A DNA stretch of 64,000 nucleotides, from contig NZ_JAQGNT010000009.1 of the NCBI RefSeq assembly GCF_028291725.1, positions 91,759 to 155,758 of the forward strand, given 5' to 3'. The translations under genes and the position numbers were made by a program. Under the pieces are notes generated by a model. That model saw nothing but the letters and a program-made list of their open reading frames with translations, searched no databases and was not told the DNA's origin. Source of the DNA: Hydrocarboniphaga sp. Its GTDB lineage: Bacteria > Pseudomonadota > Gammaproteobacteria > Nevskiales > Nevskiaceae. How positions within the stretch are numbered: the stretch's first letter is position 1; every line of letters starts with the position of its first letter. This document shows positions 10,221 through 12,237 of the stretch, one piece after another.

Positions 10221-11309
10221 ATGAGTGGCAAGGGAGCACACGTCGTCGTCGGTTTGTCCGGCGGCGTCGACTCGGCCGTTTCTGCGTATCTGCTGAAGGA
10301 GGCGGGCTACCGCGTGTCCGGCCTGTTCATGGTCAACTGGACCGAGGACGAACAGGGCTATTGCAGCTCGGCCGACGATTTCCAGGACGCGCGCGCGGTC
10401 TGCGAAGAACTCGATATCCCGCTGCACCGCGTCGATTTCTCGGCCGAATACCGCGAGCGCGTGTTCCGGCATTTTCTGGCCGACTACGCCGCCGGCAAGA
10501 CGCCGAACCCGGATCTGCTGTGCAATCGCGAAGTGAAGTTTCAGCCGTTCCGCGAGCATGCATTGCGGCTTGGCGCGGATTTCGTCGCGACCGGCCATTA
10601 CGCGCAGCTGTCGCATCAAGCCGATGGCCCGCACCTGCTGCGCTCGGTCACCGAGGACAAGGATCAGACTTATTTTCTGGCACTGGTCGCACGCGCGCAG
10701 TTCGAGCGCGTGCTGTTCCCGATCGGCGGGCTGACCAAGCCACAGGTGCGTGAGATCGCCTCCGCAGCCGGGCTGCCGAATCATCGCAAGAAGGACTCGA
10801 CCGGTATCTGCTTCATCGGCGAACGCGAATTCCGCAGCTTTCTGCAGAACTATCTGAAGCCCGATCCCGGCGCGATCCTTGACGATCGTGGCGCAAAGAT
10901 CGGCGAGCACCAGGGCCTGATGTACTACACGCTGGGCCAGCGCCGCGGTCTGAACATCGGCGGCGTCCGCGGCGCGCGCGAAGCACCCTGGTATGTCGTC
11001 GGCAAGCGTCCCGCGGACAAGGCGCTGCTGGTCAGCCAGGATCCGCAGCATCCCTTGCTGATGAGCCACAGCCTGATCACCGCGCCGTTCTGCTGGATTC
11101 GCCGCCCCGATCCCCTGCCCGCGCGGCTCCAGGCGCGCATTCGCCACCGCCAGCAACTGCAGAATTGCGTCGTGGAAGTGGCCGACGAGGGCCGCGTGCG
11201 TGTCCGCTTCGAACAGGCCCAGCGGGCCGTGTCGCCTGGCCAGTATTGCGTGCTCTACGACGGCGAGGAATGCCTTGGCGGCGGCGAAATCGAAGCTTCG
11301 CCGGGCTAA
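10221..11309 (+). CDS. mnmA: tRNA-specific 2-thiouridylase MnmA
   Basis: MnmA installs the 2-thio group on U34 of Lys, Glu and Gln tRNAs, using ATP to adenylate the base and a persulfide relay for sulfur. The PP-loop GLSGGVDSAVSA is at residues 11-22. The two catalytic cysteines are Cys101 (NPDLLCN) and Cys197 (STGICFIGER). The length of 362 aa is standard. It sits directly after nudJ and converges on a truncated SnoaL-like gene, whose end overlaps it by four bases. Confidence 0.97.
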   Translation: MSGKGAHVVVGLSGGVDSAVSAYLLKEAGYRVSGLFMVNWTEDEQGYCSSADDFQDARAVCEELDIPLHRVDFSAEYRERVFRHFLADYAAGKTPNPDLLCNREVKFQPFREHALRLGADFVATGHYAQLSHQADGPHLLRSVTEDKDQTYFLALVARAQFERVLFPIGGLTKPQVREIASAAGLPNHRKKDSTGICFIGEREFRSFLQNYLKPDPGAILDDRGAKIGEHQGLMYYTLGQRRGLNIGGVRGAREAPWYVVGKRPADKALLVSQDPQHPLLMSHSLITAPFCWIRRPDPLPARLQARIRHRQQLQNCVVEVADEGRVRVRFEQAQRAVSPGQYCVLYDGEECLGGGEIEASPG

Positions 11310-11548
11310 GCGGGCTGCTGCAATTGCTGGATTTCAAAGCGCTGATCCGGAAACGGAGCCCGCGACGACCGAACGCGTTGCTTGAAAGCTTCCAGGTCTA
11401 GTGTCTGTCCTTGCCAGGGGTCACCGGGATCGTGATGGATCGTGTAGCTCGCCGCGAGATACCGATCGGCCGCGTCGACCTTACCTTCACTCCAGATTTC
11501 GCGGAAAAACCGGATCAGCCGTTCTTTTTTTCGATTGCCGTCGGTCAT
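11306..11548 (-). pseudogene. truncated SnoaL-like / ester-cyclase-type protein
   Basis: The 80 aa resemble the N-terminal part of SnoaL-like (NTF2-fold) proteins: an initial helix (RLIRFFREIWSEGKVDAADRYLA), then YTIHHDPGDPWQG and FPDQRFEIQQL. Such proteins normally run to 120-150 aa; here the reading frame stops just where the core beta-sheet should begin, next to the mnmA stop. It overlaps the DUF2239 gene by ATGA and should be co-translated with it. I read it as a 3'-truncated remnant; a short functional protein cannot be excluded. Family assignment is by pattern only. Confidence 0.6.
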
Positions 11549-12174
11549 GTCGCCGCCTCTACGTCGGTTGTGCCCTCGGTGAAAGCGAGCTTGGTTGCGT
11601 AATTGCGCAGGTCCCCGGGCCACGCAGAAACGCATTGATCGAACCGGCCCCGATCGTCCGCGAACAGAGCGCGTGCCGCCTCCTCAAAGCCCGGCAGATC
11701 GCCGGCCCTCGCGGACATGAAGCGATAAGCCGCTTCCTGTCGCCCCCTGAGACGGTCGCGGCCGCTATTCGCGCGGCGCGCTTCTTCGACCAGCTTGCGC
11801 AACGCCACCGAAGCACCACCGGGCTGGGCGTTCAACCAGTCCCAGTGCCGGGGCAGCAGCGTCACTTCGCGCGCGATGACGCCGAGCTTCGGACGTCCGC
11901 GAGCGCGCGGTTCGCTTAAAGCCTGGCTCGTCGTCTGAACCAATGATTCGACGCCGCAGCCAGCGAGACGCGCCAGAAACTCCTGCTCGATACCGCGACA
12001 GTCGATATCGATAACGGTGCCGGTTGCGTCGTCGTAAATCGAGACCGGGCTCGAGCTGCCGGGCTCAGTTGCGCGCTTCACCGACAGGGCGAGGTCTCGC
12101 AGAGGCCCGGCGGCAAGGCGCCGATGGCCATCGAATGCAGTACAGGGTTTGTCGAGAATTTCGCTCACGATCAT
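11545..12174 (-). CDS. DUF2239 family protein
   Basis: This is a 209-aa cytoplasmic protein of the uncharacterised DUF2239 family. The N-terminal block FDGHRRLAAGPLRDLALSVK is followed by YDDATGTVIDIDCRG. A conserved core then contains GRPKLGVIAREVTLLPRHW and the Arg-rich RLRGRQEAAYRFMSARAGDLPGF, which suggests nucleic-acid or nucleotide contact, though no function is known to me. The ORF-track start is a TTG inside the -10 region; I use the ATG at 12174 with GGAG five bases upstream. Its promoter has two operator-like palindromes, and it is coupled to the truncated SnoaL-like ORF. Confidence 0.85.
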   Translation of the reverse strand: MIVSEILDKPCTAFDGHRRLAAGPLRDLALSVKRATEPGSSSPVSIYDDATGTVIDIDCRGIEQEFLARLAGCGVESLVQTTSQALSEPRARGRPKLGVIAREVTLLPRHWDWLNAQPGGASVALRKLVEEARRANSGRDRLRGRQEAAYRFMSARAGDLPGFEEAARALFADDRGRFDQCVSAWPGDLRNYATKLAFTEGTTDVEAAT

Positions 12175-12194
12175 TGGCTCCGGGATAAGAGTCA

Positions 12195-12237
12195 ATTATT
12201 ACCCGGGTAAATTATGCCGTCAATATTACCGGGGTAA
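12195..12237 (-). promoter_or_regulatory. promoter with two operator palindromes upstream of the DUF2239 gene
   Basis: On the minus strand TTGACG (12223-12218) is followed after 17 bp by AATAAT (12200-12195), a near-consensus sigma-70 promoter ending 20 bp before the start codon. TTACCCGGGTAA (12199-12210), a perfect palindrome, overlaps the -10 box. A second copy with one changed base, TTACCGGGGTAA (12226-12237), lies just upstream of -35; centres are 27 bp apart. The placement suits repression by a dimeric regulator. No regulator gene is adjacent. Confidence 0.75.

Follow-up and report, generated by a model that had tools for sequence, protein, structure and literature searches.

Ribbon-helix-helix autorepressors of the CopG, Arc and NikR type are small repressors whose palindromes lie over their own −35/−10 region. 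One-component repressors of the TetR/MarR type that act on drug efflux genes combine autorepression through palindromes with control of an exporter and detoxification genes. Here we describe a locus in a 64,000-nt stretch of DNA from Hydrocarboniphaga sp. (the window), where a gene for a DUF2239 protein lies behind a promoter with two palindromic operators. From sequence comparison we propose that DUF2239 is probably a one-component repressor of its own promoter and of a small, scattered target set, acting through these palindromic operators.

The window protein belongs to PF09998, a family that carries no function, and matches it at full length (261.9 bits, the curated cut-off being 25; positions 2-182 of a 182-position profile). 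Like the ribbon-helix-helix repressors, its core reads as a basic arm, an extended segment, a helix, a G-rich loop and a helix. Unlike them, DUF2239 has extra N- and C-terminal domains and no significant profile or structural similarity, and predicted models of the monomer give the core as an extended low-confidence arm, a helix, a loop and a helix, with no strand predicted. The control logic proposed for DUF2239 is the same as that of the TetR/MarR repressors, but the protein matches no TetR/MarR model (a Pfam search returned only DUF2239 matches, with no TetR_N or MarR domain) and its gene is not usually divergent from the targets, GIY-YIG genes excepted. We found no mention of DUF2239, COG3644 or PF09998 in the literature searched, a body with few subscription papers, and, judging from titles and abstracts, the papers retrieved with the operator strings do not appear to deal with such a regulator. 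Familiar one-component repressors work by the logic proposed here; the DUF2239 family, its operator pair and its target set appear to be undescribed in that literature.

Promoter and operators of the DUF2239 operon

On the minus strand, between 12190 and 12240, the window promoter reads TTACCCCGGTAA-TA-TTGACG-17-AATAAT. It is σ70-like, with both hexamers near consensus, and TTACCCGGGTAA extends into the −10 box (Table 1). A previous sequence-only reading of this DNA had described a strong promoter with one palindrome over −10 and a copy with one changed base upstream of −35, all of which was confirmed in the sequence. The coupling of the DUF2239 gene to a SnoaL-like remnant, also claimed there, was borne out by Pfam and by the ATGA overlap of the two reading frames; the SnoaL ORF matches profile positions 2-64 of 126 (E=2.7e-9).

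Table 1. Features of the DUF2239 operon and its promoter in the window
Feature	Coordinates	Strand	Description
DUF2239 protein, 209 aa, proposed autorepressor	11545..12174	-	PF09998, E=3.9e-78; 80 relatives
DUF2239 residues 89-133, proposed DNA-binding part	11776..11910	-	Near-invariant basic arm and helix-loop-helix core
SnoaL-like ORF, 80 aa, C-terminally truncated	11306..11548	-	Overlaps DUF2239 stop as ATGA
Upstream operator (op1)	12226..12237	-	TTACCCCGGTAA; abuts −35 box; one base changed relative to TTACCCGGGTAA
Downstream operator (op2)	12199..12210	-	Perfect palindrome TTACCCGGGTAA; overlaps −10
−35 box	12218..12223	-	TTGACG; in relatives TTGAC is kept beside op1
−10 box	12195..12200	-	AATAAT; spacer to −35 exactly 17 bp

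At two mismatches or fewer, the window holds 2 matches to the palindrome against 0.40 expected, and 7 of 100 shuffles reach 2. On count alone the pair is therefore mildly unusual and not beyond chance, so that the meaning of the palindromes rests on comparison. Judged by their position in the promoter and their conservation in homologous promoters, we regard the operators as real. In relatives, the op1 palindrome can reach 20 bp, AATATTACCCGGGTAATATT, and its right arm continues into TTGAC. Since op1 abuts −35 and op2 covers −10, the spacing of the pair is probably fixed.

Conservation and distribution of the operator pair

The comparison set comprised 81 promoters, that of the window and those of 80 fetched DUF2239 loci, which by record title come from Pseudomonadota, Acidobacteriota, Melainabacteria, Armatimonadota, Planctomycetota, Desulfobacterota, Deinococci and others. 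Of the 81 promoters, 70 carried two sites that match at 9/12 or more and lie 26-30 bp from each other, and 80 carried at least one site of this quality. The usual form among relatives is AATTTTACCCGGGTAATATTGAC...TTTTACCCGGGTAAAAT, and the pair is also found at DUF2239 in Paenibacillus, Deinococcus, Azospirillum and Comamonas. As a control, 31 of 4680 random flanking stretches of 465 bases carried a pair under a looser rule.

The Acinetobacter baumannii record NZ_CP043459.1 has diverged operators before DUF2239, TTACCCTGATAA and TTACCCCGATAA (L101:4933-4963), 19 bp apart start to start, and there the DUF2239 core has diverged too (EITLQKKHWDWLDQQSASAS). This single example is suggestive of natural covariation between operator and protein.

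The pair pattern occurred in 41 of 50 DUF2239 genomes, mostly once and at DUF2239, and in none of the 50 when reversed as a control. The exceptions were a DUF1330-type gene, two RPE65-type oxygenases, two small GIY-YIG genes, one second DUF2239 and two chance-like matches. We then considered 399 sampled genomes of the window's phylum, 44 of which contain DUF2239. Matching one site with one mismatch allowed gave too much noise in genomes that lack DUF2239, and pair patterns were used instead. The pair was found in 13 of the 44 genomes with DUF2239 versus 17 of the 355 without, and these 17 look mostly like coding sequence. With ATTGAC required in addition, a requirement added post hoc after the matches had been seen, the counts were 11/44 versus 1/355, the one lying in coding-like sequence. 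The operator pair is thus associated with the presence of DUF2239. In one genome with 19 pattern matches (G247), a 17-mer, ACCAGGATGATATTGAC, occurs many times on contig C2; it is probably an unrelated dispersed repeat.

Genes marked by the operator in other genomes

A second pattern, op1 fused to −35, gave 59 sites in 123 DUF2239 genomes and 0 in the control. Of these sites, 53 precede DUF2239 (36) or six other families: GIY-YIG (7, one in an operon with DUF2239), MATE (4), oxygenase (3), SnoaL (1), DUF1330 (1) and APH (1); the site at locus L237 stands before a SnoaL gene. The remaining 6, with neither the TTA half-site nor op2, are noise-like. The name GIY-YIG is taken from the annotation of relatives, Pfam giving no match for the one tested. 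All nine new matches with an intact half-site outside DUF2239 promoters fell in families already listed, several of them being orthologues within one genus. New pair sites away from DUF2239 promoters in the 399-genome sample marked two MATE exporters, a full-length SnoaL gene, an APH-like kinase gene and, next to DUF2239, GIY-YIG and DUF1330 genes in divergent arrangement. The neighbors of DUF2239 include GIY-YIG at 13 loci (10 divergent), MATE downstream at 8 and DUF1330 downstream at 5. Operator sites and DUF2239 neighborhoods give the same families, and therefore both point to one closed gene set.

Some targets (GIY-YIG, two MATE genes) have op1 alone; a second site is thus not required everywhere. 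Within one genus, the GIY-YIG genes of several genomes (L242-L246) have a single palindrome ending in −35 and no second site, the palindrome being 20 bp long in L242, L244 and L245, which suggests that one operator site can suffice. A compact one-locus regulon is seen at L210, where a GIY-YIG and a DUF1330 gene diverge from one operator pair (near 1500) at a distance of about 1.3 kb from DUF2239.

In other genomes, then, the operator marks genes unlinked to DUF2239, and we take these putative targets to form a small undescribed regulon. An undescribed stress or detoxification regulon had been suggested from the window alone. Its existence is upheld by the conserved operators and unlinked targets, and its content (MATE exporter, oxygenase, SnoaL and kinase-like protein) would fit detoxification.

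A full-length relative of the window SnoaL protein (locus L206, genome G566) has its own operator pair and is unlinked to DUF2239; the window remnant therefore probably once belonged to this regulon. At L206:1000-2000, this SnoaL gene under its operator pair is divergent from a protein that by eye resembles the GFA (glutathione-dependent formaldehyde-activating) family, a possible further regulon member.

DUF2239 as candidate repressor

The sequence-only reading had expected a non-adjacent regulator of TetR/MarR type. We consider DUF2239 itself the best candidate, because no other regulator is conserved as a neighbor and strict pairs are near-absent without DUF2239. A conserved neighboring regulator was rejected: by crude ORF calling, no regulator gene consistently adjoins DUF2239, whose shared neighbors are limited to few lineages, and none was seen beside the other operator targets. 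Residues 89-133 are near-invariant and basic across relatives, and much of the remaining protein is more variable. We found no solved structure for DUF2239, and a Foldseek search of its model against the PDB gave no match. No Pfam DNA-binding family matched the core above chance, up to E=10, and hhalign against eight ribbon-helix-helix repressors found nothing (probability 2%). The ribbon-helix-helix assignment first made by eye is thus unsupported by Pfam to E=10, hhalign or Foldseek.

Another, unlinked repressor (e.g., of TetR, MarR or Rrf2 type) could bind the operators, with DUF2239 merely one of its targets. Such a repressor would account for the lack of a recognized DNA-binding domain in DUF2239 and for operators at genes unlinked to it, and some regulators do lie far from their targets. 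We consider it unlikely, since operator and DUF2239 go together across phyla, hardly any strict pair is seen where DUF2239 is missing, no regulator is conserved beside DUF2239 or seen beside other targets, and the DUF2239 core is invariant and basic, with core and operator both diverged in Acinetobacter. The link between DUF2239 and the operator is a correlation, and an unlinked regulator always co-inherited with DUF2239 would look identical.

If DUF2239 is the DNA-binding protein, its invariant basic core would let a dimer bind each palindrome, which has the core TTACCCGGGTAA and, AT arms included, measures up to 20 bp. Occupation of both sites, one against −35 and one over −10, would exclude RNA polymerase from the near-consensus promoter. 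A very unlikely variant is that DUF2239, when bound to the operators, acts as an activator, or as activator and repressor both: op1 is situated immediately upstream of −35, a position open to class II activators, and stands alone at several targets, but op2 covers −10, the right arm of op1 enters −35, and hexamers so near the σ70 consensus should need no help. A specific repressor and an inducible function had been claimed from the window; the operator positions are indeed those of a repressor, and repression and a ligand are what we infer. It is hardly credible that the twin palindromes are a product of chance or of selfish DNA and play no regulatory role, for although the number of matches in the window does not reach significance by itself, the sequence, position and spacing of the sites are kept in homologous promoters of many phyla, which already refutes it, and the pair is near-absent from DUF2239-free genomes.

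Under the proposed repression by DUF2239, the remaining domains of the protein would sense a signal that releases it from the operators. The exporter, oxygenase and SnoaL among the targets suggest that this signal is probably a toxic small molecule. Release would induce DUF2239 and its operon gene, here the SnoaL remnant, and in other genomes also the MATE exporter, RPE65-type oxygenase, DUF1330, small GIY-YIG protein, SnoaL and APH-like kinase. The target set would thereby tie several orphan proteins to a MATE exporter and an RPE65-type oxygenase within a single response. If true, a domain of unknown function present in many phyla would gain a function, with a DNA site and a target list, and the question of the inducer would become directly testable with a simple reporter. 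More tentatively, and with some doubt, DUF2239 proteins may form an unrecognized family whose members are one-component transcription factors with a DNA-binding fold that has no counterpart in the PDB, and which have retained one operator across phyla, from Deinococcota to Pseudomonadota, to control shared export and detoxification genes against a widespread toxic compound.

In the 6.47-Mb host genome, the TTACCSSGGTAA form occurs only as the window's two sites, at a single locus, and none of 13 inspected near-matches elsewhere had a partner site. We therefore rejected the idea that the regulon extends further in the host. The search for similar sites that had been proposed to define the regulon thus returned only the DUF2239-SnoaL operon in the host, and unlinked genes as well in other genomes; the operator is absent elsewhere in the host but present as a pair in homologous DUF2239 promoters (70/81). 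By sequence, the host regulon appears to be this operon only, a circuit in which just the regulator and a broken SnoaL gene are left. The truncated SnoaL gene terminates inside the end of the convergent mnmA (11306-11309), so its missing half may have disappeared when the operon reached this position.
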